Below, piece by piece: positions 15,452 to 38,351 of a DNA stretch of 64,000 nucleotides. The DNA comes from Pseudonocardia autotrophica. Lineage in GTDB: Bacteria; Actinomycetota; Actinomycetes; Mycobacteriales; Pseudonocardiaceae. The stretch's first letter is position 1, and every line of letters starts with the position of its first letter. The notes beneath the pieces are model-generated. The model was not told the origin of the DNA and ran no database searches. It saw nothing but the letters and a program-made list of their open reading frames with translations. The translations under genes were made by a program, and so were the position numbers. The stretch lies in assembly GCF_003945385.1 (NCBI RefSeq), contig NZ_AP018920.1, positions 3,038,001-3,102,000 of the forward strand, read 5' to 3'.

Positions 15452-16783
15452 TCACCGGGCCGCGCCCTGACGACCGCCGGCGGTCCCGGAGGTGGCGGTG
15501 ACCATCTCGACGTTCCGGGTGTCGGGCAGGCCGAGCGTGCACAGCGCACTGACCAGGCCCAGGAACGCCAGGTAGAAGCCGATGGCCGTGCTCCCGTAGG
15601 ACGCGACGAGCGCGGTGGCGACGAGCGGTGTCACCGCGCCGCCCAGCACCCCGGCGAGGTTGTAGGCCAACCCGGCCCCGGTGTAGCGGTACTGCGCGCG
15701 GAACAGCTCCGGGAGCATCGCGCCGACGGGTCCGTAGGCGATGCCGACCACCCCGAGCACCAGGCACAACCCGAGCCCGAACGACCAGACCGTGCCGATG
15801 TCGAGGATCGGGAAGGCGATCAGCCCGACGGCCACGGAGGCGAGGTTGCCGGCGAGCACGAGTCGCTTGCGCCCCCGCCGGTCCGAGGCCACCGCGCCGA
15901 TGATCGTGGTGACGGCGAAGACGGCGCCGCCGATGATGCCCAGCGCGAGCACCGTCGTCCGCGGGTGCTCCAGCACCGCGGTCCCGTACGTGGTCAGGTA
16001 GGTCACGCCGATGTAGAAGAACGCGAACACGGTCGTCGTGACGAACGCGCCGAGGAACACCTCGCGCGGCTGGCGGGTGACCGCCTCGAGCACCGGCAGC
16101 TTCGCCACCGAGCCGGACGCCTTCGTCGCCTCGAACGCGTCCGACTCCTCGATCCGGAGCCGGACGAACAGCCCCACCCCGATCAGCAGGACGCTGCCGA
16201 TGAAGGGCAGCCGCCAGCCCCAGCTGAGGAACGCCTCGTCCGACATGGTCAGCGCGGTGATCAGGAAGGTGGCGCTGGCGAGGGAGAACGCGACCGACGG
16301 CCCCAGCTGCGGGTACAGCGCGTACTTCCCGCGCTTGGCCTTGGGTGCGTTCTCCGCGGTGAGCAGCGTCGCGCCCGCCCACTCGCCGCCGACGGCGAGG
16401 CCCTGCAGGACCCGCAGGACCACCAGCAGGATCGGTGCGAGGGCGCCGATCGCGCCGGTCGAGGGCAGCAGCCCGATCGCGACGGTCGACAACCCCATGA
16501 GCAGCAACGTGGTGACCAGGGTCCGTTTCCGGCCGATCCGGTCGCCGAAGTGTCCGAACAGGACCGACCCGAACGGTCGTGCGACGAACGCGACGCCGAA
16601 GGTCGCCAGCGCCAGCAGGGTTCCCTCGGCCGCCCCCAGCTCGGGGAAGAAGACCTTGTTGAACACCAGCGCCGCGGCGGTGCCGTAGATGAAGAAGTCG
16701 TAGAACTCGATCACGGTGCCGGTCATGCTCGCGAAGGCGACACGGCTCATCGGGTTGCGCTGCGTCGCGCCGGTGGTGGTCAT
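15452..16783 (-). CDS. MFS transporter, metabolite:H+ symporter (MHS) type
   Basis: 443 residues and about 12 hydrophobic segments. MHS-type features: ASMTGTVIEFYDFFIYGTAAALVF in helix 1, the loop 2-3 motif GHFGDRIGRKRTL, LRVLQGLAVGGEWAGATLL, and SDRRGRKRLV at the mid-protein loop. Family members import organic or aromatic acids and osmolytes with protons (ShiA, ProP, KgtP, benzoate-type carriers). Its start overlaps the stop of the acyl-CoA ligase gene, so it is part of the DpgC/oxidoreductase operon and probably imports that pathway's aromatic acid substrate. Confidence 0.87.
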   Translation of the reverse strand: MTTTGATQRNPMSRVAFASMTGTVIEFYDFFIYGTAAALVFNKVFFPELGAAEGTLLALATFGVAFVARPFGSVLFGHFGDRIGRKRTLVTTLLLMGLSTVAIGLLPSTGAIGALAPILLVVLRVLQGLAVGGEWAGATLLTAENAPKAKRGKYALYPQLGPSVAFSLASATFLITALTMSDEAFLSWGWRLPFIGSVLLIGVGLFVRLRIEESDAFEATKASGSVAKLPVLEAVTRQPREVFLGAFVTTTVFAFFYIGVTYLTTYGTAVLEHPRTTVLALGIIGGAVFAVTTIIGAVASDRRGRKRLVLAGNLASVAVGLIAFPILDIGTVWSFGLGLCLVLGVVGIAYGPVGAMLPELFRAQYRYTGAGLAYNLAGVLGGAVTPLVATALVASYGSTAIGFYLAFLGLVSALCTLGLPDTRNVEMVTATSGTAGGRQGAAR

Positions 16784-18462
16784 GGTCGGGGCTCCGTAGG
16801 GATCGTCACCGCGGGGAGGTCACCGTGGCCGGTGTGGGCCGGCACGGTCGCGAGCGGCTCCGGGGAGCCGAGCTCGTCGATCGCGATCCGGCGCATCCGG
16901 AACTTCTGGATCTTTCCGCTGGCAGTGGTGGGGAAGGAGTCGGTCAGGCGCCACAGCGCCGGGATCTTGGACCGGCTGATGCGGCCCGTGCAGAACTCGA
17001 CGAGCTCGGGGACGGCGGGTTCGGCGCCGGGATTCGGCCGGACCCAGGCCATCACCTGCTCCCCGTAGTAGTCGTGCGGGACGCCGATCACCTGGGCGTC
17101 GCTGACCTGCGGATGGCCGCGCAGGACCTCCTCGATCTCGCCGGGGTGGATGTTCTCCCCGCCGCGGATGATGACGTCCTTGATCCGTCCCACCACGGTC
17201 ACGACCCCCCGCTCGTCCATGACGGCCAGGTCGCCGGTGCGCATCCAGCCCGCGGGATCGATCGCCTCGGCGGTCGCCCCGTCGTCCGCCCAGTAGCCGC
17301 GCATCACGCTGTAGCCGCGGGTGCACTGCTCGCCGGGTGTCCCGACGGGCACGACCCGGCCGGTGGCGGGGTCGACGATCGTGACCTCGATGTGCGGGGT
17401 CGGCCGTCCGACGGTGTGGTCCCGCACGTCCGGCGGGTCGTCGGGCAGCGTCTGGGTGGAGATCGGCGAGGTCTCGGTCATGCCGCACACGGTGGACAGC
17501 CGCGGGACGTGCAGCCGGTCGCGGATCGAGGCCAGCAGCTCCGGCGGGCACGGTGCGCCCCCGATCAGCCCGCCGCGCAGCGAGCCGACGTCCGAGCCGG
17601 CCAGGTCCGGGTGTTCGAGCAGCGCGCGGAACATGGTCGGCACGCCGTAGACGGCCGTGCACCGCTCGGCGACGATGCTCGCCAGCGTCAGCCGGGCGTC
17701 GAAGGGGCCCCCGGGCAGCACCAGCGCCGCACCGTGCGAGCCGGCGCCCAGCGTGCCGAGCACCATCCCGAAACAGTGGAACAGCGGTACCGGCACACAG
17801 ATCCGGTCCTGCTCGGTGAACCCTGCCTGCGCGCCGACGAGGTGGCCGTTGTTGAGCAGGTTGTGGTGGGTCAGGGTGGCGCCCTTGGGCCGGCCGGTCG
17901 TGCCGGAGGTGAACTGGATCGCCACCGGGTCGCCGGGATCGACCCGCTGCTCGGCCGCCGCGACCCCGGTGGGCTCCGCGGCGACGAACTCGGCCCAGTC
18001 CCGCTCGAAGGTCACCGCACCCTGCAGCTCGGGACACGTCGTCGCGACGTCGGCGACCAGCTCGGCGCAGTCGGTCCCGCGGTACCGCGCGGCGTGGAAG
18101 AGCAGCCGGGTGCCCGAGTGCCGCAGCGCCTGGCCGAGCTCGGCCCGCTCGTAGGTCGGGTTCAGCGCGACCAGTACCGCGCCGATGCGCGCCGCCGCGT
18201 ACTGCAGGACGACCCACTCGTGGCGGTTCGCCGCCCACACCCCGACCCGGTCGCCGTGGCCGATTCCGCGGGCCAGCAGCCCGCCCGCGACGCGGCCGGA
18301 GCTCTCCCACAGCTCGGCGTAGGACGCGCGGGTCCCGAGCTCGACGTCCACCAGCGCGGTGCGGTCGCCGCAGCGCTCGACCGTGCGGCGCAGGTTCTGC
18401 CCGATGGTCTCGTCGAGCAGCGGCCGCCGGGTGGATCCGCGCGCGTAGGACGGGCCGGTCAT
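16780..18462 (-). CDS. AMP-dependent acyl-CoA synthetase (FadD/medium-chain type)
   Basis: 560 residues, ATG 18462 overlapping the thioesterase stop. ANL motifs: IQFTSGTTGRPKGATLTHHN (~190-210), FHCFGMVLGTL, CGMTETSPIS, GWMRTGDLAVMDERGVVTVVGR and KDVIIRGGENIHPGEIEEVL, and the catalytic Lys in TTASGKIQKFRM near 520. It resembles fatty-acyl/aryl-acyl CoA synthetases. In context it gives a second entry to the pathway: a free arylacetate or related acid, imported by the neighbouring transporter, could be activated to the CoA ester used by the DpgC-like enzyme. Confidence 0.85.
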   Translation of the reverse strand: MTGPSYARGSTRRPLLDETIGQNLRRTVERCGDRTALVDVELGTRASYAELWESSGRVAGGLLARGIGHGDRVGVWAANRHEWVVLQYAAARIGAVLVALNPTYERAELGQALRHSGTRLLFHAARYRGTDCAELVADVATTCPELQGAVTFERDWAEFVAAEPTGVAAAEQRVDPGDPVAIQFTSGTTGRPKGATLTHHNLLNNGHLVGAQAGFTEQDRICVPVPLFHCFGMVLGTLGAGSHGAALVLPGGPFDARLTLASIVAERCTAVYGVPTMFRALLEHPDLAGSDVGSLRGGLIGGAPCPPELLASIRDRLHVPRLSTVCGMTETSPISTQTLPDDPPDVRDHTVGRPTPHIEVTIVDPATGRVVPVGTPGEQCTRGYSVMRGYWADDGATAEAIDPAGWMRTGDLAVMDERGVVTVVGRIKDVIIRGGENIHPGEIEEVLRGHPQVSDAQVIGVPHDYYGEQVMAWVRPNPGAEPAVPELVEFCTGRISRSKIPALWRLTDSFPTTASGKIQKFRMRRIAIDELGSPEPLATVPAHTGHGDLPAVTIPTEPRP

Positions 18463-18887
18463 CGCGGCACCCTCCCGGGCTCGGCGCCGGCCCGGGCCGC
18501 CTTCTCCCCGAGGCGGGTGCCGAACGACCCGCCGTCGACGACGAAGCGGTCGTGCCGGCCGTGCGCGATCCGCTCGACGTCGTCGAACGCCTCGACGGTC
18601 GTCGTGATCCGCCTGCGGTCGATCTCCACGACGACGGCCGTGGCCGTCACCAGCTGGCCGAGCACGGTCGGGCGCAGGTGCACGATGTCCACGGTGGACC
18701 CGACCGAGTCCTGGCCGGGCCCCAGCAGCGGGGCGACGGCGGCCGACGCCGCCTCCTCGAGCAGCCGCACCACCGACGGGGTCCCGAGGACGTGGTGACC
18801 GGCGCGCGCGACGCAGTCCGCCACCGTCACCCGGTGCTCGACGGAGCCGGGCGGGAGATCGGCGGGCGCGGGGCGCTCCGGCGGCAT
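18459..18887 (-). CDS. FlK-like (fluoroacetyl-CoA thioesterase family) hot-dog thioesterase
   Basis: 142 residues from ATG 18887, whose A overlaps the TGA of the DpgC-like gene. Hot-dog layout of the FlK family: TPSVVRLLEEAASAAVAPLL (helix with Thr and Glu at the FlK catalytic positions), STVDIVHLRPTVLGQLVTATAVVVEIDRR (central strand with the third catalytic residue, His), VEAFDDVERIAHGRHDRFVVD and FGTRLGEKAARAG. FlK hydrolyses fluoroacetyl-CoA; most homologues are of unknown substrate. Here it may release stalled or mis-activated aryl-CoA, protecting the CoA pool. Confidence 0.75.
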   Translation of the reverse strand: MPPERPAPADLPPGSVEHRVTVADCVARAGHHVLGTPSVVRLLEEAASAAVAPLLGPGQDSVGSTVDIVHLRPTVLGQLVTATAVVVEIDRRRITTTVEAFDDVERIAHGRHDRFVVDGGSFGTRLGEKAARAGAEPGRVPR

Positions 18888-20236
18888 CACTTCACACCGC
18901 CCCGGCGCTTCGGGTCCCACGCCGCCTCCAGGTTGCGGATGATGGCGGGCGAGTACATGCACCGCGCCTGGCCGATGGCCAGGTTCGCCATGTAGTGCCG
19001 GAAGGTCTCCAGCGGTTCGGCGGCGACCCGGATCTGGGTGCGGTTGGCGTTGACGCCCACGTGCCCGGTGGCCGTCAACGCGTCCACGGCGTTCGCGATG
19101 GCCGCCTGCATGCCCTCCTCGTCGACCACCAGGTCGTCGACGATCTGGCGGCCCTCGGGGGAGTCGACGTAGATGTCGCGGTTGAAGAAGATCCCCTGGC
19201 GGGCGACCTTCTCGCCGACGAAGCGCGGCAGGCGCATGTTGCCGCAGCCGGGCAGGAACCCCTCGCGGCGCGCCGGCAGGTTCACATATGCGCCGGAGCG
19301 GGCGACGACCCGGTCCATGACCAGCAGGAACTGGCAGCCGCCTCCGATCGCGAAGGTGTCGACGGCGGCGATCCACGGCTTCTCGTGCCGGCGCTCGACG
19401 ACCGACACCCGGCCGTCGCCCAGCGAGTGCCCCCGGAACCACTTGGTGATCAGGCCCAGCTCGCGCTCGATGAAGAACTCGATCAGCGAGACCTCGCCGT
19501 GGTAGAGCCGGGTGAGGTTGACCCCGGCGTCGAATACCCGCCGTCCCAAGTACTTCGGGTGCCGGGACTCGGCTCCGCGGAGCACGCCGATGTCGATCCG
19601 GTCGTCGAGCAGGATCAGGTCGGTCGCGATCTCCATGGCGCGGGTGGACTCGTCGTCCTCGGCGTTGAGGTACTTGTGGTGCTGGATCGTCAGGTGCCCG
19701 ACGTTGCCGCGGCGTTCCACCAGGCTGGTGCCCAGGTCCACGCGGTCGGTGCGGCGCAGCTCGTCGAGCAGCTCGAGTGCCTCCGGCAGCGGCTGCGCCA
19801 TCGCGTGCATGAGGTGGTGCCCGGCGACCGGGTCGTCGAGGACGTGGGAGATCAGGATGCCCTGGTCCTGCTCCCAGCCCTCCTTGTCCTTCTGCGGGTG
19901 GGTCCGCTCCTCGGCGATCCGTTCCCGGGTGGGCACCAGGCCGGGGACGAGATCGGCCGCGGCGTAGGCCAGCTCGGCGACGCGCAGTGTCCGGGTGCGG
20001 CCGTCGGTGAGGGTGTCGTACAGGGCGGCGACGTGCACCGCGAGGTAGTCCTCGCGGGCGGCGCGGCCCCGGTCGAGGATCGCCGACGCGGCCGCCTGCT
20101 GCTGCTCGGTGCGCTCCGGGCGGGCGGGGAGGCCGGCCAGCTCGCCGTCGAGGTCGGCGAACAGCTCGGAGACCAGGGCGGTGTCCTTGTCGAGGTCTCG
20201 GGTCAGCTGGATCGGGCTGGCTGGGGTGTCGGCCAT
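18887..20236 (-). CDS. DpgC-like cofactor-independent arylacetyl-CoA dioxygenase
   Basis: 449 residues, much longer than a plain crotonase because of a ~200-residue helical N-terminal domain, as in DpgC of glycopeptide biosynthesis. DpgC converts 3,5-dihydroxyphenylacetyl-CoA and O2 to 3,5-dihydroxyphenylglyoxylate and CoA without metal or flavin. DpgC-type blocks: NAEDDESTRAMEIATDLILL (~191), SRHPKYLGRRVFDAGVNLTR (~224), EKPWIAAVDTFAIGGGCQFL (~285-304, GGGCQ at 298-302) and LPARREGFLPGCGNMRLPRF (~318-337). No dpgA, dpgB, dpgD or NRPS gene is present. Its start lies 1 bp after the oxidoreductase stop. An enoyl-CoA hydratase-like role is the alternative. Confidence 0.82.
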   Translation of the reverse strand: MADTPASPIQLTRDLDKDTALVSELFADLDGELAGLPARPERTEQQQAAASAILDRGRAAREDYLAVHVAALYDTLTDGRTRTLRVAELAYAAADLVPGLVPTRERIAEERTHPQKDKEGWEQDQGILISHVLDDPVAGHHLMHAMAQPLPEALELLDELRRTDRVDLGTSLVERRGNVGHLTIQHHKYLNAEDDESTRAMEIATDLILLDDRIDIGVLRGAESRHPKYLGRRVFDAGVNLTRLYHGEVSLIEFFIERELGLITKWFRGHSLGDGRVSVVERRHEKPWIAAVDTFAIGGGCQFLLVMDRVVARSGAYVNLPARREGFLPGCGNMRLPRFVGEKVARQGIFFNRDIYVDSPEGRQIVDDLVVDEEGMQAAIANAVDALTATGHVGVNANRTQIRVAAEPLETFRHYMANLAIGQARCMYSPAIIRNLEAAWDPKRRGGVK

Positions 20237-20237
20237 G

Positions 20238-23200
20238 TCAGCGCTCCGTCTGTGTCAGCAGGGGAAGGGACAGGGTGTTGTGCAGCCGGCCGCGCAGGAC
20301 CTCCGCACGCTCGCGGGCCTCGGCGGCCGAGCGCAGCTTGATGTCCTCGTAGCCGCGGATGCCCTCCGGCAGCCGGGCGATGTCCAGGACGGCGGCCTTG
20401 TTCTGCAGCTTCAGCGCGTCCATCGCCGTCCGGACGAGGTCGGTGTACCAGTCGACGAGGCTGCGCTCCTCGACGCGGACCCGGTCGCGGCCGAACGGGT
20501 CCCACGCGGTGCCGCGCACCCGCTTGAGCCGGCTCAGCACGGCGAACACCGGATCGGCCACCCGGGCCGGCAGTGCGATCTTGTTCGTCATGCCCATCGC
20601 GCGCAGCATCGGCGGATGCAGGTGGTAGGAGATCCGCACCGGTCCGGCGAAGCGGCCCGACGCCCGCTGCTCCCGGCTCGCCCGCAGGTGTAGGCGGGCG
20701 ACCTCGTACTCGTCCTTGTAGGCCATGAGCGTGTGCAGGTTGCGGATCACCTCGCGGGTGATCGGCAGGCCGGCGGGTCCGCCCGTGCGCTCCCGTTCGC
20801 GTCGCGCGACGTCGCACACCACGTCGACGTAGCGGCCGGCGTACGCGGTGTCCTGGTAGGCGATCAGCTCGCCGATCCGCACCGCCAGCAGCCGCCGGTC
20901 CTCCTCGGCCAGGTCCGCGACCCGGGCGACGAGCGCGTCGTAACCGCCGCGGTCGCGGGCGGGCAGCCGGTCGCGGGCGTGCGCACGTTCCTGCTCGGCG
21001 TCGCGGGGCGGCGGCGAGACCAGCGCGGCGACCCGGGCCGGGTCGGCCACGGCGAGCCGCCCGTAGCGGAACGCCTGCCGGTTCTGCTCCCGGGCCGTGC
21101 CGTTGAGCCGGATCGCCTCCTCGATCGCCTCCGACGAGATCGGGAGCAGCCCCGCCTGGTAGGCGGCGCCGACGGCCACCATGTTCGTGGCCATGTAGTC
21201 GCCGAACACGGTCTCGGCGACGGCACGGGCGTCCACGGCGACGGTCCGGGCGGCGAACCGGGAGATGGTGTCGACCATCGGGTCGACCGGCACGTCGAGC
21301 CGGCTGTTGCGGATCATCTCGCCGCTGGGCAGCAGCCCCGAGTTGACCAGGGCCGCGGTGTGCTCGGGTGAGCAGCGGTCCAGGTTGACCGGATCCGCCG
21401 CGGCCATCGCGTCGACGGCCAGGTAGAGGTCCGCCCGGCCGACGCCGACCTTGTTCGAGTCGGTCCGCTGTCCGCGCGGGCTCAGCACCAGGCTGCTCAG
21501 CACGGCGCCCCACTTCTGTGCGGCCCCGGTCTGGTCGTAGCTGACCGCCTCGGCCCCGTCCACGAGCGCGGCCCAGGCCAGCATCGAGTTCAGGGTGAGC
21601 ACGCCGGTGCCGCCGACGCCCGGCACGAAGACGTGGTAGGGCCGGTCCAGCGGCGGACGGTCCGGCTCGGGCACCGCGTCGGCCCCGAGGGGGGTGTAGG
21701 CCGGGGTCGCGAAGCCCTCCTCGCTGTGCACGGTGAGGAAGGACGGGCAATCGCCTTTGAGACACGAGTGGTCCTGGTTGCAGGACGACTGGTGGACGGT
21801 GGTCTTCGGCCCGAACTCGGTGTCGCTCTTGTGCAGCGACATGCAGTTGGTGACCTCGCCGCAGTCGCCGCAGTTCTCGCAGACGTCCTCGTTGATCATC
21901 ACGAAGGTGGTCGCCTTGGGCGCGGTGCCCCGTTTCCGGCGACGGCGGCGCTCGTTCGCGCACTCACCGTCGTAGAGGAAGATCGTGACGCCGTCGGTCC
22001 GCTCGAGCTCGGCGAGCACGTCCTGGACCTCCCCGGCGGTGTGCACCGAGGCGATGGCGGGCAGGTCCGCCCGGCGGTAGACGGCCGGGTCCTCGGCCAC
22101 GATGCCGATCTTCGTGACGCCTTCCAGGGCGAGCAGGTGGGCCAGCTTCGGGACCTCGGACCGGCCGATCGGCTCCTGGGCGCCGGTGTTGGCGACCGCG
22201 CCGTTGTAGAGGATCCGGTAGGTCATCGACACGCCCGCGGCGATCGACCAGCGGATGCTCAGGTAGCTGGAGTGGAACAGGCTGCCGTCGCCCTGGTTCT
22301 GGATCACGTGCTTCATGTCGGTGAACGGGCTGAGCCCGATCCACCCGACGCCCTCACCACCGAGCGGGAAGGTGGCGTCGATCCGGCGTTCGGGCTGTTC
22401 CATCACCGCCGCGAAGATGTGGCAGCCCGGTGCGCCCCAGGCCACCTGGCCCTCGCTCACGACCGTGGAGACGTTGTGCGGGCAGCCCGAGCAGTAGTTC
22501 GGCGAGCGCTTCGAGGTCGAGGAGTAGTCGCGTTCCCGCACCGCGGTGAGCTCCTCGGTGCGCCGGTCGAGCACGATCTGCTCGCGCAGGCGGGGGCGCA
22601 GCAGCGGGGCGAGCCCCACCGCGACGGCATCGGCGTCGAGGCTGCCGTACTCGGCGAAGCGCACCCGGCCCTCCAGATCGCGCTTGCCGTGCACCCGCGG
22701 CGCCGCGGCCGTGTTGCAGAGGGCGACCTTGACCGCGTCCTCCAGGATCGGGCGCTTCTCCTCCACGACGACGACCTCGTCGAGACCCCGGGTTGCCTCG
22801 CGGACGAAGGCGGAGTCCAGCGGATAGATCGCACCGATCTTGATCAGCCGGACACCCGCCGCCCGCAGGTCGTCGGTGCCGATGCCGAGATCGCGCAACG
22901 CCTGCAGGGTGTCGGCGTAGCTCTTGCCCGCGGTCAGCAGCCCGAGGGTGTCGTGCTCGCCGCGCACCGGGATCCGGTCGAGCCCGTTGGCCTGCGCGTA
23001 GGCCGTGGCCGCCGGCTGGCGCTCGGTGAACACGTGCCGCTCGGTCTCCACGACCGACCCGGGGAAGAACGCGTGGTCCTGCCACTTGCGGAACGGGCGC
23101 CCGTCGATCTCGAACTCGGGGGTGACGATCGCGGGCCCCTCCGGGGTGAGATCGACCGTCTGACCGCCGTCGCAGAGCTGACCGATCAGCTTCATCGCGA

Positions 23201-23825
23201 CCCAGCAGCCCGAGTAGCGGGACATGCCCACCGCGTGCGCCGAGTAGCTCAGGAACTCCTCGACCGAGGAGGGGTAGAGCACCGGGATCCCGGCGTGGGC
23301 GAAGGCGTACTCCTGCTCGTAGGGCAGCGACGAGCTCTTCGCCTCGTGGTCCTCGCCGGAGAGCACGACCACCGCACCGTGCCGGGTGGTCCCGGCGAAG
23401 TTCCCGTGCCGCAGCGAGTCGCCGGCGCGGTCGAGCCCCGGGCCCTTGCCGTACCAGAATCCGGTGACGCCGTCGTAGCGGCTGTGCGGGTAGCGCTCCA
23501 GCAGCTGGGTGCCCATCAGGGCCGCGGCGGCGAGTTCCTCGTTCTGGCCCATCCGGTGGACGATGTGGTGCTCGTCGAGCAGCTCGCGGTTCTGCTGCAG
23601 CGTGAGGTCGTAGCCGCCGAGCGGGGAACCGGGGAACCCGGTGATGAACCCACCGGTGCGCAGGCCCGCACGCCGGTCCCGGCGTGCCTGGTCCAGCGGT
23701 GCGCGGACGAGCGCCTGGACTCCGGTGAGGAAGGTCCTGCCGCTCTCGAGCCGGAACCGGTCGCCCAGCGAGACGGTGCCCGCCTGGAGCGGCGTCTCGA
23801 TGCGGCCGGCATCGACTGTCGTCAT
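20238..23825 (-). CDS. Indolepyruvate:ferredoxin oxidoreductase family protein (fused, long form)
   Basis: 1195 residues from ATG 23825. These enzymes oxidatively decarboxylate aromatic 2-oxo acids (indole-, phenyl-, hydroxyphenylpyruvate) to arylacetyl-CoA. Domains: pyrimidine-binding part with GGFITGFPGSPLGGYDL (~58-75); TPP-binding part from CSGCPHNVS (~447) through NQGDGSLFHSSYLS (~510); a Cys-rich iron-sulfur segment CENCGDCGEVTNC to CLKGDCP (~645-690); gamma-like domain FVPGVGGTGVLTLNSMLAWAA (~730); and a DUF6537-like C-terminus. It heads a five-gene overlapping operon. The frame stays open far upstream, but the ATG follows an operator-like dyad. Confidence 0.9.
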   Translation of the reverse strand: MTTVDAGRIETPLQAGTVSLGDRFRLESGRTFLTGVQALVRAPLDQARRDRRAGLRTGGFITGFPGSPLGGYDLTLQQNRELLDEHHIVHRMGQNEELAAAALMGTQLLERYPHSRYDGVTGFWYGKGPGLDRAGDSLRHGNFAGTTRHGAVVVLSGEDHEAKSSSLPYEQEYAFAHAGIPVLYPSSVEEFLSYSAHAVGMSRYSGCWVAMKLIGQLCDGGQTVDLTPEGPAIVTPEFEIDGRPFRKWQDHAFFPGSVVETERHVFTERQPAATAYAQANGLDRIPVRGEHDTLGLLTAGKSYADTLQALRDLGIGTDDLRAAGVRLIKIGAIYPLDSAFVREATRGLDEVVVVEEKRPILEDAVKVALCNTAAAPRVHGKRDLEGRVRFAEYGSLDADAVAVGLAPLLRPRLREQIVLDRRTEELTAVRERDYSSTSKRSPNYCSGCPHNVSTVVSEGQVAWGAPGCHIFAAVMEQPERRIDATFPLGGEGVGWIGLSPFTDMKHVIQNQGDGSLFHSSYLSIRWSIAAGVSMTYRILYNGAVANTGAQEPIGRSEVPKLAHLLALEGVTKIGIVAEDPAVYRRADLPAIASVHTAGEVQDVLAELERTDGVTIFLYDGECANERRRRRKRGTAPKATTFVMINEDVCENCGDCGEVTNCMSLHKSDTEFGPKTTVHQSSCNQDHSCLKGDCPSFLTVHSEEGFATPAYTPLGADAVPEPDRPPLDRPYHVFVPGVGGTGVLTLNSMLAWAALVDGAEAVSYDQTGAAQKWGAVLSSLVLSPRGQRTDSNKVGVGRADLYLAVDAMAAADPVNLDRCSPEHTAALVNSGLLPSGEMIRNSRLDVPVDPMVDTISRFAARTVAVDARAVAETVFGDYMATNMVAVGAAYQAGLLPISSEAIEEAIRLNGTAREQNRQAFRYGRLAVADPARVAALVSPPPRDAEQERAHARDRLPARDRGGYDALVARVADLAEEDRRLLAVRIGELIAYQDTAYAGRYVDVVCDVARRERERTGGPAGLPITREVIRNLHTLMAYKDEYEVARLHLRASREQRASGRFAGPVRISYHLHPPMLRAMGMTNKIALPARVADPVFAVLSRLKRVRGTAWDPFGRDRVRVEERSLVDWYTDLVRTAMDALKLQNKAAVLDIARLPEGIRGYEDIKLRSAAEARERAEVLRGRLHNTLSLPLLTQTER

Positions 23826-23932: not shown

Positions 23933-24661
23933 TCAGGGGCGGTAGCCACCGGCGACCGCGCGCAGCGCGGCCAGGTCGGGGACGATGATCTCCCGGCCCC
24001 GGCGGAGGACGAGCCCCTCGCCGATCAGGCGGGCGAGCTCCCGGCTCAGGGTCACCCGGGTGACGCCGAGGATCAGGGCGAGCTCGTCGAGCGAGTACCG
24101 GGTGCGCAGTCGGACTCCCTCGGTGCAGCGCACCCCGTAGGCCTCGACGAGGTGATCGAGGATGAGGGCGACCCGGCCGCGGGCCGGCAGGCCGTCGGCG
24201 GCGATGTGCATCGCGAAGAGCCGCGCCTTCCGCGAGATCCGCCGCGTGATCTCCATCAGGATCTCCGGCTCGCGCCGGCCCGCCTCGAGCACCGCGCGGC
24301 GGCTCACGGCCACCAGACGGCTGTCGACGGTGGCCACGCAGGAGGCGTAGCGGGGGAGCCCGTCGAAGCACGTCGACTCCCCGATGCCCGCGCCCGGTTC
24401 GGCGTAGGACAGCACGCGCTCGGAACCGTCGGCGCGGGTCAGGTAGATGCGCAGCCGGCCCTCGATCACCTGGTAGAAGTAGTCGGACAGGGAGCCCTGC
24501 CGGTAGACGAACTCGCCGGCCCGGAAGCGGCGGGCCTCGCCCAGCGAGGCGATCTGCTGGGCGATCGAGGGCTCCTCGGTCAGCAGGAACGGCGAGGTGA
24601 TCGACACCGCCGCCGGCCGCGCCACTCCGACGAGGACGTGTGGATCACGCTGCTGTGACAT
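23933..24661 (-). CDS. Crp/Fnr family transcriptional regulator
   Basis: 242 residues from ATG 24661, chosen because GGGGG precedes it; two earlier ATGs (24694, 24709) have no ribosome-binding site and lie within a regulatory motif. The cyclic-nucleotide-binding-type domain (FRAGEFVYRQGSLSDYFYQVIEGRLRIYLTR, VLSYAEPGAGIGESTCFDG) is followed by an HTH_Crp domain (TRYSLDELALILGVTRVTLSRELARLIGEGLVLRRGREIIV). There is no N-terminal Cys cluster, so it is not an FNR-type iron-sulfur sensor. It sits directly before the oxidoreductase/DpgC operon and is a likely regulator of it. Confidence 0.87.
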   Translation of the reverse strand: MSQQRDPHVLVGVARPAAVSITSPFLLTEEPSIAQQIASLGEARRFRAGEFVYRQGSLSDYFYQVIEGRLRIYLTRADGSERVLSYAEPGAGIGESTCFDGLPRYASCVATVDSRLVAVSRRAVLEAGRREPEILMEITRRISRKARLFAMHIAADGLPARGRVALILDHLVEAYGVRCTEGVRLRTRYSLDELALILGVTRVTLSRELARLIGEGLVLRRGREIIVPDLAALRAVAGGYRP

Positions 24662-24690
24662 GGGGCCCCCGGCGTCGTCGACGGACGCCG

Positions 24691-24713
24691 TCATCGTACT
24701 AGCGCTCATTAGT
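24691..24713 (-). promoter_or_regulatory. Regulon motif copy 1 (upstream of Crp/Fnr gene)
   Basis: On the minus strand the site reads ACTAATGAGCGCTAGTACGA, with ACTA/TAGT ends forming a 16-bp imperfect dyad (24698-24713). It lies 30-52 bp before the chosen Crp/Fnr start and has the same orientation relative to its gene as the three related sites at 28261-28280, 28403-28422 and 30191-30210. Confidence 0.6.
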
Positions 24714-24766
24714 CGTCGGCGACCCTCGCGCGCCACCGGTGCGGGCCGGGCTCGGAGCGGCGGGGA

Positions 24767-24997: not shown

Positions 24998-26404
24998 TCA
25001 GGCACGCGACAGCTCGGCGAGGCGGTCGACGATCGCGTCGATGTCGGCCCGGGTCGTGCGGTGGTTGGTGATGCAGACCCGGATCCCGTGCGCACCGCCG
25101 ACGACCGCCGGGCCCAGCAGGGCGGTGCCCTCCTCGGCGAGCCGGGCCAGCAGCGTCGTGTGCTCCGGCCCCGACAGTCCCGGCAGGCGGATGCAGACGG
25201 CGGTCAGGGTCACCGGCGCCATCAGCTCCAGACCCGGCTCGGCCGTGACCCGCCTGCCCAGGTGCCCGGCGAGCTCCAGCATTCCGGTCAGCGCCGATCC
25301 GAACGCGTCGGTGCCGAACGTCCGCAGCGCCGCCCAGATCTTGAGGGCCTTGAAGCTGCGGGACAGCTGCGGGCCGTGGTCCATGTAGTCGTGCATCAGT
25401 GGGTCCTGCGCGACGGTGAGGTACGACGAGGAGTAGGCGTAGGCCGCGCGCAGCGTCGCGGCGTCGCGCACGAGCAGGCAGCCCGCCTCCAGCGGGGCGA
25501 ACAGCAGCTTGTGGGGATCCAGGGCGACGGAGTCGGCGCGGCGGATCTCGCGGAACATCTCCGCGACCGGCTCGGCGAGGACGAACAACGCGCCGTACGC
25601 CCCGTCGACGTGCAGCCACAGGTCCTCGGCCTCGGCGAGATCGGCGATCTCACCGAGCGGGTCGACCGATCCGGTGGTCACCGTTCCGGCGGTGGCGACG
25701 ACGCAGAACGGTTCGAGGCCGGCCGCGCGGTCCGCCCGTACAGCCTCGGCCAGCAGATCGACGCGCATCCGCAGGCGATCGTCGGTCGGGATGTGCCGCA
25801 CGTGGTCCAGCCCGATGCCGAGAATCCCCGCCGCCTTGTCGACGCACCGGTGCGCCTCGGCGGAGGTGTAGAGCACCAGGGGCGCGCGGCCGGCCTGCAG
25901 GCCCGTCGCCCGGAAGTCCGGCCGGCGGGCGTGCAGCGCGACGGTCAGGGCGTTGAGCGTGGCGATCGAGCCCCCACCGGTGAGGATCCCGCCCGCGCGC
26001 TCCTGGTCGAACCCGAACCGGCTCGCCAGCCAGCCGATCACGGTTCGCTCGATCACGCTGGCCGCGGGGGAGAGCTGCCAGAAGTTGCAGTTCTGGTTCA
26101 GGGTGGCCGCGACCGCCTCGGCGTAGGCGGCGATCCCGGTGGGCGGCCCGAGGACGTAGGCGAGGAACCGCGGGTGCGACACCGCGGTCGAGTTGGGGAC
26201 GATGCGCTCGTCGAGATCGCGGAAGAAGCCCTCCACGCCGGTACCGGTGGCCGGGAACCCCTCGTGCATCAGCTCCTGCAGGGTGTCCCGGTCGATCTCG
26301 GGGACGATCGGCGTGTCGTCCAGGTTCCGCTCGTACCCGTCCAGGAACCGGGCGAGCAGATCGTTCGCCCGGCGGCGCTCGGCGTCGTCGAGAATCAGGC
26401 TCAT
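24998..26404 (-). CDS. PLP-dependent aromatic-L-amino-acid decarboxylase family
   Basis: 468 residues from ATG 26404. Group II decarboxylase features: FPATGTGVEGFFRDLDERIVPNSTAVSHPRFLAYV, GGILTGGGSIATLNAL, VLYTSAEAHRCVDKAAGILG, LWLHVDGAYGALFVLAEPV (Asp for the PLP nitrogen), and DSVALDPHKLLFAPLEAGCLLV with the Schiff-base Lys near residue 298. These enzymes decarboxylate Tyr, Trp, Phe or Dopa; some plant relatives are aldehyde synthases. It is divergent from an Lrp/AsnC gene and next to the arylpyruvate oxidoreductase region, which fits aromatic amino-acid turnover. Confidence 0.87.
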   Translation of the reverse strand: MSLILDDAERRRANDLLARFLDGYERNLDDTPIVPEIDRDTLQELMHEGFPATGTGVEGFFRDLDERIVPNSTAVSHPRFLAYVLGPPTGIAAYAEAVAATLNQNCNFWQLSPAASVIERTVIGWLASRFGFDQERAGGILTGGGSIATLNALTVALHARRPDFRATGLQAGRAPLVLYTSAEAHRCVDKAAGILGIGLDHVRHIPTDDRLRMRVDLLAEAVRADRAAGLEPFCVVATAGTVTTGSVDPLGEIADLAEAEDLWLHVDGAYGALFVLAEPVAEMFREIRRADSVALDPHKLLFAPLEAGCLLVRDAATLRAAYAYSSSYLTVAQDPLMHDYMDHGPQLSRSFKALKIWAALRTFGTDAFGSALTGMLELAGHLGRRVTAEPGLELMAPVTLTAVCIRLPGLSGPEHTTLLARLAEEGTALLGPAVVGGAHGIRVCITNHRTTRADIDAIVDRLAELSRA

Positions 26405-26514
26405 CGTCACTCCCCGTGCAGCTCGCTGTCGTGCGGGGTCGATGTTATGTGCGTTATCGGGGTGGATGGTGCCGACTTCTGCCCCGACACCCCGCGCCGA
26501 TAGCATCATCTGCC

Positions 26515-26973
26515 ATGGATCGGATCGATCACGCAATCCTCGATCATCTCGTCGCGGACGGCCGGATCTCCAACGCCGAACTGGCCCAGCGGGTCGGGCT
26601 GTCCCCGTCGCCGTGCCTGCGGCGGGTCCGGGCCCTGGAGGACGCCGGAGTCGTCACCGGTTATCACGCGGCGGTGAACCAGGCGGCGCTCGGCCGCGGC
26701 CTCCGCCTGCTGGTCCACGTCGACATGGCCGATCAGCGACGCGACACCGTCCAGGCCTTCGAGGCGGCCGTGGGGGAAGTGGACGAGATCGTCGGCTGCC
26801 GGCGCATGTTCGGGAACCCGGACTACCTGCTCGACGTCGCGGTCAGCGGGTTCGAGGCCTACGAGCAGCTGTACATGGAACGCCTGACCGCGCTGCCCGG
26901 CGTCGCGACGACCACGTCGCAGATCATCATGAAGGTGGTCAAGCAGTCCCCGGGGCACTCACCGCTGCGCTGA
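26515..26973 (+). CDS. Lrp/AsnC family transcriptional regulator
   Basis: 152 residues from ATG 26515. The N-terminal AsnC-type winged helix (MDRIDHAILDHLVADGRISN, AELAQRVGLSPSPCLRRVRALEDAGVVTGY) is followed by a RAM effector domain (LLVHVDMADQRRDTVQAFEAAV, VDEIVGCRRMFGNPDYLLDVAVSGFEAYEQ). Family members sense amino acids. It is divergently transcribed from the aromatic amino-acid decarboxylase across 110 bp and is the likely controller of that gene, with an aromatic amino acid as plausible effector. Confidence 0.92.
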   Translation: MDRIDHAILDHLVADGRISNAELAQRVGLSPSPCLRRVRALEDAGVVTGYHAAVNQAALGRGLRLLVHVDMADQRRDTVQAFEAAVGEVDEIVGCRRMFGNPDYLLDVAVSGFEAYEQLYMERLTALPGVATTTSQIIMKVVKQSPGHSPLR

Positions 26974-28587: not shown

Positions 28588-30135
28588 ATGCTGAGGACCG
28601 AGTACATCGCCACCGTGGCGGAGCTGATGGCGGTCCACGAGGCGGCCCGGCCCGAACGGATCGCCTTCGCCGACGACGACCGCACGATCACCTACGGCGC
28701 ACTGGCCCGCACGACCGCGCGGCTGGCCGGTCACATGCAGGAACTCGGGATCGAGCCCGGCGACCGCGTCCTGCTCCACCTCGACAACCGGGTCGAGGTC
28801 GCCGAGTCGTACCTCGCGATCCCGCGCACCGGCGCCGTCGCCGTCTGCGCGAACCCGCAGGCCGCCCCCGCGGAGGTCGCTCACATTCTGGCCGACAGCG
28901 GCGCGCGGATCGTCGTCACCGATCCCGAACGCCTGCCGGTGGTGCGCGAGCTGGCGGCCGGGGCGGATCTGCTCGCGGTGATCGTGGTCGGCGGGGCGGC
29001 CGCTGCCGGCGAACTCGGCTACGCCGATCTCGTCGGTGCCGACGCCGCGCAGCCGCCCCGGGACTGCCTGGGGCTCGACGACGTCGCCTGGATGCTCTAC
29101 ACGTCGGGCACCACCGGCCGCCCGAAGGGCGTGTACCTCACCCAGCGCGGGTGCTTCTGGGTGGTCGCCGCCTGCTGGGCGCCGATCGCCGGCCTCGGCC
29201 CGGACGACGTGGTGCTGAGCGCGCTGCCGCTGTTCCACTCCTACGCGCTCGTGCTGTGCGTGCTCGGGGTGTTCGCCGTCGGTGCGAGCGAGCGGATCCT
29301 GCCGCGGTTCTCGGTGTCCGACGTCGCCGCCCGGTTGTCCGGTGGACCGGAGGGCGACGTGACCGTGTTCCCGGGCGTCCCGACGATGTTCCACTACCTG
29401 CTCGACCGGGTCGGCGACCGCGGATTGGAGGCCCCGGCACTGCGGCTCTGCGTGTCCGCCGGCGCGATCCTGGCGGCCTCGGTCACCGAGAGGTTCGAGG
29501 CCGCGTTCGGGGTCCCGCTGCTCGACGGCTACGGGATCACCGAGACCTCGACCATGGTCACGATGAACTGGCCGACGGGGACCCGGGTGATGGGCTCCTG
29601 CGGACTGCCGCTGCCGGGGCTGACCGTGCGGCTCGTGGATCCGGGGACCGGCACGGACGTCGGCCATGGGGAGGAGGGGGAGCTGTGGGTGCAGGGACCG
29701 AACGTCACCCCCGGCTACCACGACCTGCCGGAGGCGACCGCCGCCGTGCTCGTCGACGGCTGGTACCGCACCGGCGACCTGGGCCGCCGCGACACCCACG
29801 GCTACCTGCGGATCAGCGGCCGGACCAAGGAGCTGATCATCCGGGGCGGGGAGAACATCTATCCGGCCGAGGTCGAGGAGGCGCTGGCGGGCGCCGTGGG
29901 TGTGCAGGACGTCGCGGTCGTCGGGGTCCCGCATCCACAGCTCGGCGAGGTGCCGGTCGCCTTCGTGGTCCCCGCCGGGCCGGAGCCGCTCGATCACGCC
30001 GCGGTCCTGGACTCGGCACGTGGGCGGCTCTCGTCGTTCAAGGTTCCCGACCGGCTGGTCGAATGCCGGACCATTCCGCGCACCGGCTCCGGCAAGATCC
30101 TCCGTTTCCGGCTCCGGCAGCAGCTCGGCGGCTGA
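28588..30135 (+). CDS. AMP-dependent acyl-CoA ligase
   Basis: 515 residues; AAGGAG lies 8 nt before the ATG. ANL motifs: MLYTSGTTGRPKGVYLTQRG (~170-190), LFHSYALVLCVL, DGYGITETSTMVTMNWPTG (~312), DGWYRTGDLGRRDTHGYLRISGR then KELIIRGGENIYPAEVEEAL (~390-432), and the catalytic Lys in RTGSGKILRFRL near 503. It belongs with the ligases that activate benzoate-like or short acids. Regulon-motif sites lie on both sides of it, so it is likely co-regulated with the Mo-hydroxylase operon and would supply its CoA thioester. Substrate unknown. Confidence 0.85.
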   Translation: MLRTEYIATVAELMAVHEAARPERIAFADDDRTITYGALARTTARLAGHMQELGIEPGDRVLLHLDNRVEVAESYLAIPRTGAVAVCANPQAAPAEVAHILADSGARIVVTDPERLPVVRELAAGADLLAVIVVGGAAAAGELGYADLVGADAAQPPRDCLGLDDVAWMLYTSGTTGRPKGVYLTQRGCFWVVAACWAPIAGLGPDDVVLSALPLFHSYALVLCVLGVFAVGASERILPRFSVSDVAARLSGGPEGDVTVFPGVPTMFHYLLDRVGDRGLEAPALRLCVSAGAILAASVTERFEAAFGVPLLDGYGITETSTMVTMNWPTGTRVMGSCGLPLPGLTVRLVDPGTGTDVGHGEEGELWVQGPNVTPGYHDLPEATAAVLVDGWYRTGDLGRRDTHGYLRISGRTKELIIRGGENIYPAEVEEALAGAVGVQDVAVVGVPHPQLGEVPVAFVVPAGPEPLDHAAVLDSARGRLSSFKVPDRLVECRTIPRTGSGKILRFRLRQQLGG

Positions 30136-30190
30136 GTCCGTCGCGGTGACCCGAGCCGGGTTGGCCTGGAGCCGACCATGTCCTACAGTG

Positions 30191-30210
30191 ACTAAAGAGC
30201 GTTAGTTAGT
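30191..30210 (+). promoter_or_regulatory. Regulon motif copy 4 (upstream of the Mo-hydroxylase operon)
   Basis: ACTAAAGAGCGTTAGTTAGT, with an internal ACTAA-N6-TTAGT dyad. It ends 14 bp before the ATG of the CoxG-like gene, just before its Shine-Dalgarno (AAGGAG), so a bound protein would block transcription or initiation directly. Confidence 0.65.
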
Positions 30211-30224
30211 AAGGAGCGCGCAGG

Positions 30225-31073
30225 ATGGACCTGACGCACACGTTCACCGTCTCCGAGCCCGTGGACCGGGCCTGGGCGGTGATCACAGATCTCGAACGGG
30301 TCGCCCCGTGCCTGCCCGGCGCGACGATGCTGGGCGTCGACGGCGAGGCCTACCGCGGCGCCGTCGCGGTGAAGGTCGGACCGGTGACCGCCCGCTACGA
30401 GGGCATCGCCCGGTTCACCGAGCGCGACGACGCGGCGCGCCACGCCGTCATCCGGGCCGAGGGGCGCGACGTCGGCGGTCAGGGCAACGCCGCCGCGACC
30501 ATCGACATCCGGCTGCGCGAGCAGGGCTCCGGTACCGAGGTCGCCGTCGTGACCGACCTCGATCTCGCCGGGCGGGTCGCCCAGTTCGGCCGAGGCGTGA
30601 TCTCCGACGTCAGCAGCAAGCTGATCGGCCGGTTCGCCCGCCGGCTCGAGGCGGAGATGGCCGGCGGCTCCACCGGTGGCAGCGCCGTCGACCCGGCCGT
30701 CGACCCGGCCGCCGACCCGGCCGCCGACGGCCGAGCCGGAGCCGGTGACGGTACTGCCGGCCGGGCCGGAGCCGCGCCGGGCGTCCCGGCACCGACGGTG
30801 ACCGGACCGGCGCAGCGGCGTGCACCGCAGGAGGCCGAGCCACTCGATCTACTCGCCACCGGCGGCGGCGTCGTCGGGGCGGTCGTCGGGTCGCTGGCCC
30901 GGCGGCACGCGCTTCCCCTCGGCACCGCCCTGCTCGGGCTCGTGCTCGGAGTGCTCGTCGGGCGCGCCCGGCGGCGCCCGGGCCCGCCACGCCACGCCGG
31001 GCAGGCGGGAGCGCCGGTCCTCCAGCTCGTCCTGCCCGGCACCCACATCCGTCTCCCGGAGGAGAGCCGATGA
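30225..31073 (+). CDS. CoxG-like SRPBCC protein with membrane anchor
   Basis: 282 residues. Residues 1-145 are a CoxG-type SRPBCC domain (MDLTHTFTVSEPVDRAWAVI, LERVAPCLPGATMLGVDGEAYRGAVAVKVGPVTARYEG, VVTDLDLAGRVAQFGRGVI). A Pro/Ala linker with PAVDPAADPAAD repeats follows, then a hydrophobic segment (LPLGTALLGLVLGVLVG, ~226-242). CoxG-type proteins tie molybdenum hydroxylases to the membrane and help their maturation or electron transfer. It is the first gene of the 30225-39697 operon; its stop overlaps the ALDH start. Confidence 0.85.
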   Translation: MDLTHTFTVSEPVDRAWAVITDLERVAPCLPGATMLGVDGEAYRGAVAVKVGPVTARYEGIARFTERDDAARHAVIRAEGRDVGGQGNAAATIDIRLREQGSGTEVAVVTDLDLAGRVAQFGRGVISDVSSKLIGRFARRLEAEMAGGSTGGSAVDPAVDPAADPAADGRAGAGDGTAGRAGAAPGVPAPTVTGPAQRRAPQEAEPLDLLATGGGVVGAVVGSLARRHALPLGTALLGLVLGVLVGRARRRPGPPRHAGQAGAPVLQLVLPGTHIRLPEESR

Positions 31074-34427: not shown

Positions 34428-34436
34428 GAGCACCTC

Positions 34437-35201: not shown

Positions 35202-35237
35202 CCGGACGGATCCGGCACGCTGCAGCGAGGAGGACCG

Positions 35238-38347: not shown

Positions 38348-38351
38348 GCAC

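Follow-up and report, generated by a model that had tools for sequence, protein, structure and literature searches.

A DpgC-like dioxygenase homologue in a candidate operon for aerobic alpha-oxidation of arylacetic acids in Pseudonocardia autotrophica

Our results point, with a likelihood that we place slightly above even, to a five-gene operon of Pseudonocardia autotrophica as the determinant of aerobic arylacetic acid alpha-oxidation, in which a fused 2-oxoacid:ferredoxin oxidoreductase (KOR) would act after a DpgC-like dioxygenase. The operon lies in a stretch of 64,000 nt, hereafter the window (assembly GCF_003945385.1, contig NZ_AP018920.1, positions 3,038,001-3,102,000, forward strand), to which all coordinates refer unless otherwise indicated. 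The original prediction, according to which the KOR would supply the dioxygenase with arylacetyl-CoA, was partly supported.

In the proposed pathway, a symporter of the MHS type would take up the acid (ArCH2COOH), and an AMP-forming ligase would convert it into ArCH2CO-CoA; the DpgC-like enzyme would turn ArCH2CO-CoA and O2 into ArCOCOOH and CoA, without metal or cofactor, and the KOR would yield ArCO-CoA from ArCOCOOH by oxidative decarboxylation, with ferredoxin or some other acceptor taking up the two electrons. The resulting aroyl-CoA would enter the Box benzoyl-CoA epoxidation pathway or, alternatively, be hydrolysed to the free aryl carboxylate by a FlK-type thioesterase, whose role may otherwise be the hydrolysis of stalled arylacetyl-CoA. 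The net effect would be an aryl side chain shortened by one carbon. We infer each of these catalytic steps, the direction of the KOR, the role of the FlK-type protein and the aryl group, which would be that of phenylacetate where Box genes or a true PaaK adjoin; the substrate of the window organism is possibly a ring-substituted arylacetate, given that its genome carries Paa genes too.

Organization of the operon and flanking genes

The five open reading frames are all encoded on the minus strand (15452..23825) and contain no internal stops. In their order along the operon, they correspond to the KOR, of the indolepyruvate oxidoreductase family (1195 aa, 20238..23825; PRK13030), the predicted DpgC-like cofactor-free dioxygenase (449 aa, 18887..20236; Foldseek and active-site residues), the FlK-type hotdog thioesterase (143 aa, 18459..18890; PF22636), the AMP-forming acyl/aryl-CoA ligase (560 aa, 16780..18462; PF00501 and PF13193), and the MHS-type metabolite:H+ symporter (443 aa, 15452..16783; TIGR00883). 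The intergenic gaps are +1, -4, -4 and -4 bp, which confirms the original description of genes joined by gaps or overlaps of at most 4 bp, and the operon is real.

The FlK-type protein scored 98.9 bits against PF22636, over the gathering cut-off of 27, and its T37/E45/H71 aligned with T42/E50/H76 of FlK, which we take to be the catalytic Thr/Glu/His. An FlK gene is also placed between the dioxygenase and ligase genes in four other loci (L027, L028, L033 and L034; L numbers designate the loci compared). The symporter reached 396.9 bits against TIGR00883, below the cut-off of 443.45, its second-best model being the shikimate transporter (335.8 bits; cut-off 538).

A Crp/Fnr-type regulator (23933..24736, minus strand, start codon uncertain; PF00027 and PF13545) ends 107 bp upstream of the KOR, and each of the eight Actinomycetota relatives carrying the KOR-dioxygenase pair (L009-L014, L023 and L177) has such a gene upstream of its KOR; its product is the probable regulator of the operon. 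A PLP-dependent decarboxylase (24998..26536, minus strand, start codon uncertain), for which the best NCBIfam model was NF052646 with 214.2 bits, far under the cut-off of 900, is by our reading of the aromatic-amino-acid type and a candidate pathway neighbour, being linked to the dioxygenase locus in L011, L012 and L023. Another candidate pathway neighbour is an island on the plus strand (28588..39697), pieces of which lie near the dioxygenase in L009, L010, L012-L016 and L023. It starts with a ligase, CoxG, an aldehyde dehydrogenase, a Zn-ADH, an MBL-fold protein and an SDR, continues with a CODH-like molybdenum hydroxylase large subunit and an enoyl-CoA hydratase, and ends with two frames resembling FAD and 2Fe-2S subunits, assigned by reading alone.

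The oxidoreductase, its neighbours and the order of the reactions

The KOR scored 1221.4 bits against PRK13030 (subfamily cut-off 816) and was also over the cut-off of PRK13029 (1072.3 versus 952), with 107 bits against TIGR03336, the indolepyruvate ferredoxin oxidoreductase alpha equivalog, below the required 650.9. PadG (NF045764, phenylglyoxylate dehydrogenase) was absent among the 18 families listed for this protein at E 0.001, and a sequence search of the PDB gave no match at E 1e-5. GDGS and Cys-rich motifs are present, which we take to be the ThDP and Fe-S motifs, respectively.

This KOR is tied to the dioxygenase homologue: KORs of at least 79% identity occur in 7 of 62 Pseudonocardia genomes, exactly those with the dioxygenase, and other KORs of the genus reached at most 46% identity among the matches listed. 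In the KOR tree, built without second copies and one short row, the dioxygenase-linked KORs of Actinomycetota and Myxococcota share one side of a branch with support 100/99; this grouping is partly a sampling result, because all unlinked rows came from genomes with a DpgC relative, and the co-occurrence counts are the fairer test. Furthermore, a survey for the same neighbourhood, which the original prediction had proposed as a check, revealed the KOR-dioxygenase adjacency in 10 other genome records (L009-L014, L023, L035, L037 and L177), and this recurrence indicates that the arrangement is not due to chance. L009 and L010 carry identical dioxygenases; in L023 the frames are broken in that assembly, with KOR pieces upstream of the dioxygenase, and this locus was not scored as KOR-adjacent in the neighbour tally described below. 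The Myxococcota loci L035 and L037 display KOR-DpgC operons, with gaps of 13 and 11 bp, that no ligase adjoins, and in L015 and L016, both close relatives, no KOR adjoins the dioxygenase. The companion genes are less constant than the pair: the FlK match is missing in L013 and L177, an insertion separates FlK and ligase in L011, and the symporter match is missing in L011, L013 and L177.

The neighbour tally comprised 84 loci of clade 2, i.e., the dioxygenase homologues beside, and separate from, glycopeptide-type DpgC, with second copies (L009, L166, L167, L174 and L178), five glycopeptide-clade loci (L051, L060, L079, L083 and L086) and short-flank loci omitted. In 24 of these loci, the dioxygenase has a FadD- or PaaK-type ligase no more than 700 bp away: the FadD type in 16, on the same strand, and the PaaK type in 8 (same strand in 5, opposite strand in 3). 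None of the probed genes was found within 10 kb in 42 of the 84, 20 of them on sequence of at least 16 kb, and the Reyranella- and betaproteobacteria-type homologues displayed no common neighbour theme.

Box genes are linked to the dioxygenase in three clade-2 loci. BoxD, BoxB and BoxC lie beside the KOR-DpgC pair in L037 (675.1, 790.6 and 749.4 bits), and BoxB and BoxC in L035 (773.8 and 751.2 bits), all over curated cut-offs; in the proteobacterial contig L036, a BoxB fragment, PaaK (663.1 bits; cut-off 646.3) and DpgC follow on one strand, with a ribosomal protein L9 gene downstream. Probing the dioxygenase loci gave BoxB together with BoxC in L035, in L037 and in the second copies of both, BoxB alone in L036, and a weak BoxC match (28%) in L097. 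A PaaK over the cut-off also adjoins the dioxygenase in L042 and L061; of the six PaaK-type neighbours scored, the other three, in L022, L031 and L173, were below it. In L042, the dioxygenase is flanked by PaaK on one side and, on the other, by a DNA-repair gene (HhH-GPD), with which the L049 gene clusters.

No BoxB or BoxC was found inside the window; the single BoxB of the genome (G000:C1:1422680; 764.3 bits, cut-off 499.1) belongs to a separate Box site (L093) more than 1.6 Mb from the operon, and a BoxC homologue with 49% identity to that of L037 is encoded in the same genome. As BoxB was present in 18 of 18 genus genomes examined that have no dioxygenase, its presence within the genus says nothing, and it was dropped as evidence. 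Among the dioxygenase-bearing genomes, 11 of the 41 examined gave no BoxB beyond weak matches.

We place the KOR after the dioxygenase because the operon has its own ligase and Box genes, which consume benzoyl-CoA, stand beside the Myxococcota KOR-DpgC pairs; the two observations agree better with a KOR making aroyl-CoA from arylglyoxylate. The order originally predicted, in which the KOR would convert an arylpyruvate into arylacetyl-CoA, and DpgC would then produce an arylglyoxylate with its fate elsewhere, is less probable; we include here its hybrid form, a promiscuous KOR acting on both arylpyruvate, to give arylacetyl-CoA, and arylglyoxylate, to give aroyl-CoA. The name of the family, indolepyruvate oxidoreductase, agrees with such an order, as does a split IorA near the dioxygenase in L058, which surpasses the equivalog cut-off (704.2 versus 650.9 bits), and the missing ligase in L035 and L037 favours a KOR making arylacetyl-CoA, against our proposal. 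Likewise, in the Streptomyces NRPS cluster of L094, 2-oxoacid (PDH) dehydrogenase E1 alpha/beta and an aminotransferase accompany DpgC, suggesting a sequence from arylpyruvate through arylacetyl-CoA and arylglyoxylate to arylglycine, and the 2-oxoacid enzyme of this cluster is better read as upstream of DpgC. However, the window operon has a ligase and a transporter of its own and no aminotransferase among its five genes, and a KOR acting first would leave the Box genes beside KOR-DpgC unexplained. Also counted against our proposal were the frequency of Box linkage (3/84), the 42 loci devoid of probed genes, the 11 dioxygenase-bearing genomes with at most weak BoxB matches, the three PaaK-type neighbours under the cut-off, the two close relatives lacking an adjoining KOR and the L094 context.

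The dioxygenase homologue as a relative of DpgC

Against NF042432, the DpgC equivalog, the dioxygenase homologue (18887..20236) scored 436.6 bits, below the cut-off of 530, and by its sequence it is a relative of DpgC rather than an equivalog match. In a tree of 79 sequences (34 of the 113 rows of the residue table omitted), a branch with support 100 separates it from glycopeptide DpgC. Structural comparison of its model with DpgC, another of the checks proposed, gave a matching fold: the top Foldseek matches were PDB 2np9 and 4ylh, both DpgC, with TM values of 0.85-0.87 over 424-426 columns, and the predicted fold spans the full length of the protein, N-terminal helical domain included. Non-DpgC proteins had TM values of 0.47 or less among the 50 matches listed, and the assignment as a plain enoyl-CoA hydratase was rejected, the DpgC match being far above any hydratase among them. 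The model is poor at residues 322-342 (pLDDT <50), so little was gained at the active-site loop.

Using DpgC numbering, which was checked against the PDB entry titles R254K, A319C and V425T, the window protein keeps E189, R254, E255, G295, G296, Q299, A319, E322 and P326, and carries the substitutions I235V, Y258L, A298C, I324F, I325L and V425I. We take E189, R254, E255, Q299 and the G295-G296 loop to be catalytic or substrate positions of DpgC, I324 to be an O2-pocket position, and 324 and 298 to be near the O2 or thioester site. Most catalytic residues of DpgC are retained, although the presumed pocket position 324 is Phe, and the gene pair recurs in other genomes; as far as these two points were examined, the outcomes named as refuting the original prediction were not observed. 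The residue table, excluding rows with stops, with fewer than 330 aligned query residues or from second copies, revealed E189, R254 and Q299 conserved in 111, 112 and 113 of 113 sequences compared. In its 82 clade-2 rows (against 31 others, labels being set by neighbours and similarity and not by the tree), position 255 varies between Glu (36) and Asp (40), and 63 rows have Ile at position 324, against 19 with Phe.

If the homologue had lost O2 chemistry and were instead a hydratase or a CoA thioesterase, its operon would be an ordinary one for arylacetate or fatty-acid catabolism. We consider this unlikely: the score below the equivalog cut-off, the replacements I324F and A298C, and the name 'thioesterase DpgC' given to relatives by some databases are in its favour, but the best structural matches are DpgC, with a query TM of up to 0.87, the E189, R254 and Q299 positions are nearly invariant, and FlK would presumably make a second thioesterase in this operon superfluous. 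The two replacements, together with the poor model at 322-342, were also counted against the proposed pathway. The mechanism is a further argument against it: phenylacetyl-CoA may be a hard substrate, since DpgC leans on an activated dihydroxyphenyl ring. DpgC is reported to use neither a charged residue nor a water molecule as the base (PMC10138960).

Neither the DpgA nor the DpgB probe matched within 10 kb of the window dioxygenase, in agreement with the original prediction, and glycopeptide-type biosynthesis was ruled out on this basis. As for DpgD, the enoyl-CoA hydratase at 11605-12387 scored 116.5 bits against a cut-off of 400, and no DpgD model was listed at E 1e-40 for that at 37616-38347. 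A DpgC-type step on arylacetyl-CoA outside the DpgA/B context is supported as a prediction, with a ligase in the operon and a conserved neighbourhood.

Relationship to known systems

The window protein has in common with DpgC, the (3,5-dihydroxyphenyl)acetyl-CoA 1,2-dioxygenase encoded in clusters for glycopeptides, kendomycin and venemycin (PDB 2NP9 and 4YLH), its length, its predicted fold, and the E189/R254/E255/Q299 set with the G295-G296 loop. It differs in its score below the NF042432 cut-off, its position across the fully supported branch, and its Cys298, Leu258 and Phe324, and its gene is joined to those of a ligase, a KOR and a transporter, with no DpgA/B nearby.

Phenylacetate is subjected to anaerobic alpha-oxidation in Thauera and Aromatoleum by PadJ, PadBCD and PadEFGHI. 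If our proposal is correct, the operon would encode the oxygen-using counterpart of this route, which would share with it the intermediates (arylacetyl-CoA, then arylglyoxylate and CoA, then aroyl-CoA) and have a last step likewise performed by a 2-oxoacid:acceptor oxidoreductase. In contrast to the Pad route, the oxidation would rely on O2 and a crotonase-fold enzyme instead of a molybdenum enzyme, the KOR is a fused protein of the indolepyruvate family instead of PadEFGHI, and the predicted sink is Box instead of benzoyl-CoA reductase. To our knowledge, this breakdown logic is otherwise known only from oxygen-free bacteria with quite different enzymes.

The aerobic, CoA-dependent catabolism of arylacetates by the Paa pathway attacks the ring and not the side chain. 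True PaaK ligases adjoin some clade-2 dioxygenases, and the window genome has two PaaA/PaaC-family genes (PF05138) over the Pfam cut-off at G000:C1:37-39 kb, outside both operon and window, ruling out that Paa is missing and replaced by the operon; the originally suggested bypass of Paa is thus only partly apt, a side-chain route being proposed alongside these genes. The aroyl-CoA would probably be received by the Box pathway, whose genes are close to the dioxygenase in L035, L036 and L037 and missing from the window.

We give an even chance to the broader reading in which an aerobic 'phenylglyoxylate route' operates in a widespread clade beside DpgC: O2 would oxidize the side chain of arylacetyl-CoA without metal or cofactor, and a dedicated 2-oxoacid oxidoreductase would lead on to benzoyl-CoA and Box. 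If so, phenylacetate-type compounds would gain a further aerobic fate, the textbook pathways of arylacetate and benzoyl-CoA would be joined through a cofactor-free dioxygenase, and a function would be assigned to a clade whose members now bear mixed database labels, among those listed 'enoyl-CoA hydratase/isomerase family protein', 'thioesterase DpgC' and '(3,5-dihydroxyphenyl)acetyl-CoA 1,2-dioxygenase'. This would also suggest that antibiotic-biosynthesis and catabolic enzymes diverged from a common arylacetyl-CoA oxygenase. We know of no earlier catabolic use of DpgC chemistry, as judged from a limited literature search, and the pathway may already be in print.

The formation of 3,5-dihydroxybenzoate by VemC/VemE/VemF (Ken) likewise combines a DpgC-type enzyme with the removal of one carbon from arylglyoxylate, and differs in being biosynthetic and in its proposed ThDP decarboxylase, yielding an aldehyde, followed by a dehydrogenase, without CoA (PMC5132015). 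That the window operon is itself a biosynthetic fragment, supplying a natural product with arylglyoxylate or arylglycine, is very improbable: the known DpgC works in the biosynthesis of arylglycine or dihydroxybenzoate (PMC5132015; PMC11727664), and NRPS and aminotransferase genes neighbour it in L094, as do DegT aminotransferases the dioxygenase in L018-L021, but DpgA/B matches near the operon and an aminotransferase within it are absent, no frame in the window exceeds 1377 aa among the gene calls, the large unannotated frame at 45638-49561 had no match to ligase probes even at E 10, and an uptake symporter and a ligase are present, with some relatives beside Box and PaaK genes.

Operon structure and the DpgC-like dioxygenase

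As originally predicted, reading frames and family models place five genes on the minus strand of the window, encoding a fused 2-oxoacid:ferredoxin oxidoreductase (KOR; 20238-23825), a DpgC-like dioxygenase (18887-20236), an FlK-type thioesterase (18459-18890), an AMP-ligase (16780-18462) and an MHS symporter (15452-16783), with successive gaps of +1, -4, -4 and -4 bp. The anatomy, families, conservation and linkage of this operon are direct observations, and its upstream side lies 107 bp from the end of a Crp-type regulator gene. The host genome (7.5 Mb, two contigs) contains one full-length dioxygenase match and 11 partial ones (27-36% identity), and named relatives 80-90% identical to the window dioxygenase occur in Pseudonocardia, Amycolatopsis and Actinomycetospora.

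The DpgC-type fold that had been anticipated was recovered by Foldseek, the top matches of the dioxygenase model being DpgC entries 4ylh and 2np9 (query TM-score 0.85-0.87), with non-DpgC proteins reaching at most 0.47 among the 50 matches listed. In DpgC numbering (chain position minus 2, consistent with PDB titles R254K, A319C and V425T), the window protein retains E189, R254, E255, G295, G296, Q299, A319, E322 and P326, and carries the substitutions I235V, Y258L, A298C, I324F, I325L and V425I. In DpgC, E189, R254, E255 and Q299 presumably hold the substrate, and we take I324 to line the O2 pocket.

The protein scored 436.6 bits, under the NCBIfam DpgC cut-off of 530 bits. In a 79-row tree supported by SH-aLRT values rather than bootstrap, one branch (SH-aLRT 100) sets 20 glycopeptide-type rows (15 with DpgA/B, three with PDH, two unlabelled) apart from 58 others plus the window protein, here named clade 2; both would be sister clades if the midpoint root holds. 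Cys298 is present in 81 of 82 clade-2 rows (Phe in locus L025) versus 0/31 glycopeptide-type rows, labelled in this comparison by neighbours and similarity. Within clade 2, DpgA/B-type neighbours were found at L168, a long branch of unsure placement, and L043 has a weak DpgA-probe match (27%). The protein is therefore named DpgC-like and not DpgC. In a limited literature search, the portions of the sources consulted described DpgC in biosynthesis or mechanism only (PMC5132015, PMC11727664, PMC10548524, PMC10138960).

Association of the KOR with the dioxygenase

On sequence evidence, the KOR belongs with the dioxygenase. The latter was found in 7 of 62 genomes of the genus (E 1e-60), and KORs at least 79% identical were found in the same seven, one of them in pieces; all remaining genus KORs listed at E 1e-150 showed at most 46% identity, and the single second KOR of the host genome, 44%. 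The random-draw chance of this agreement, about 2e-9, is illustrative only, given linkage and shared descent. A survey for the same neighbourhood, suggested as a check in the original prediction, recovered the KOR-dioxygenase operon in two MAGs, L035 and L037, both Myxococcota (gaps of 13 and 11 bp). In the KOR tree, a branch with support 100/99 sets the dioxygenase-linked KORs apart, a grouping that is partly a sampling result, as the unlinked rows all come from genomes with a DpgC relative.

In one assembly only, that of Pseudonocardia sp. CNS-004 (L023, 5601-15077), the matches to KOR, dioxygenase, ligase and symporter are each fragmented; our guess is that sequencing errors are more likely than decay.

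Other 2-oxoacid enzymes were found near dioxygenase relatives. Split IorA/IorB lie near the relative at L028, and at L058 (3171-8770) a betaproteobacterial DpgC relative has upstream of it IorA as well as KorABC, the alpha, beta and gamma subunits of a further 2-oxoacid:acceptor oxidoreductase. PDH-probe matches occur within 10 kb of the dioxygenase at L022, L026, L027, L029, L070 and L081; the two checked against the PDH E1-alpha model, L022 and L029, scored 280.5 and 276.4, under the cut-off of 411.35. PDH E1-alpha/beta are present at the glycopeptide-side loci L079, L086 and L094, where the DpgA probe gave no match. At L094 (7929-13969), an annotated Streptomyces NRPS locus, a DpgC relative is accompanied by MbtH, an aminotransferase and the E1 alpha and beta subunits of a 2-oxoacid dehydrogenase, possibly a mixed route from arylpyruvate to arylglycine.

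Box genes and the proposed order of reactions

The reactions of the operon enzymes are proposed from family membership and gene neighbourhood. At L037, the KOR-dioxygenase pair is convergent, across 454 bp, with BoxD-, BoxB- and BoxC-type genes, which scored 675.1, 790.6 and 749.4 against curated cut-offs of 444, 499.1 and 712.3, respectively. At L035, BoxB and BoxC (773.8 and 751.2 bits) start 2143 bp past the dioxygenase on the opposite strand. At L036, three genes follow one another head to tail on a single strand: a fragment of BoxB at the edge of the contig (385.2 bits across its 250 residues), then PaaK, then the dioxygenase. The Box substrate is benzoyl-CoA. In the anaerobic Pad pathway, phenylglyoxylate is formed and then converted into benzoyl-CoA by a 2-oxoacid:acceptor oxidoreductase. 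By the same logic, the dioxygenase would yield phenylglyoxylate, which the KOR, itself a 2-oxoacid:acceptor oxidoreductase, would turn into benzoyl-CoA. We therefore propose that the KOR acts after the dioxygenase, since the Box genes beside the pair use the exact product of that order. The original prediction had the KOR upstream, supplying arylacetyl-CoA from arylpyruvate; this order, or one KOR serving both steps, fits the finding of no ligase next to the pair at L035 and L037, but the Box linkage favours a downstream KOR, and we consider the upstream order less likely.

BoxB exceeded the cut-off in 27 of 41 genomes with a clade-2 dioxygenase (the other 14 comprising three with broken or partial matches and 11 with none or weak ones), in 18/18 same-genus genomes lacking the dioxygenase and in 0/14 control genomes. 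Because those 18 dioxygenase-free genomes all carry BoxB, its mere presence has no weight, and only physical linkage, seen in 3/84 clade-2 loci, is informative.

Ligase neighbours, distribution and flanking genes

A FadD-type ligase on the same strand lies within 700 bp of the dioxygenase in 16 of the 84 clade-2 loci, and eight loci have one of PaaK type within that distance (five same strand, three opposite). Three of six PaaK-type neighbours tested, those of L036, L042 and L061, passed the equivalog cut-off for phenylacetate-CoA ligase, those of L022, L031 and L173 falling under it; where it is passed, the dioxygenase substrate is likely phenylacetyl-CoA. This reading is weakened by the 42/84 loci where no probed gene was found within 10 kb; of these, 20 offered at least 16 kb of sequence. 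FlK matches adjoin the dioxygenase in 10/84 loci, the order dioxygenase-FlK-ligase recurring at L027, L028, L033 and L034, and the window homologue retains Thr/Glu/His, which we take to be the FlK catalytic set.

Alignment-based phylum surveys (E 1e-80) found relatives, glycopeptide-type members included, in 4/195 Myxococcota genomes, 11/400 Chloroflexota, 4/396 of the window's phylum and 3/398 of that of L028, counts that may be low, as at most eight candidates per genome were scored in Myxococcota and four in the others. Within the family of the window, a relative (E 1e-60) occurs in 20 of 150 genomes; of the 20 loci considered there besides the window and the L095 genome, 18 have DpgA next to the dioxygenase.

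In Streptomyces loci L018-L021, a clade-2-type dioxygenase adjoins a ligase and, on the opposite strand, a DegT-type aminotransferase gene, and L019 has a frame of 3206 aa upstream. At L044, L056, L065 and L071, genes for an acyl-CoA dehydrogenase and for a two-component system neighbour the dioxygenase relative; their families were read at L056 and assigned by clustering at the others. Neither a ligase nor a KOR was matched within 10 kb at these loci. Beside the operon, window positions 24998-39697 carry regulator genes, one AsnC-like (by reading) and two TetR, together with genes for a decarboxylase, a second AMP-ligase, CoxG, aldehyde and alcohol dehydrogenases, MBL-fold and SDR proteins, an enoyl-CoA hydratase and a molybdenum hydroxylase of CODH-like type; Pseudonocardia, Amycolatopsis and, without KOR, Actinomycetospora have parts of this set close to the dioxygenase. 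Just past this island, at 40369-42974, a transposase-like frame and two paired genes, one DNA-binding (excisionase-like) and one PIN-like, all assigned by reading only, suggest a mobile-element border.
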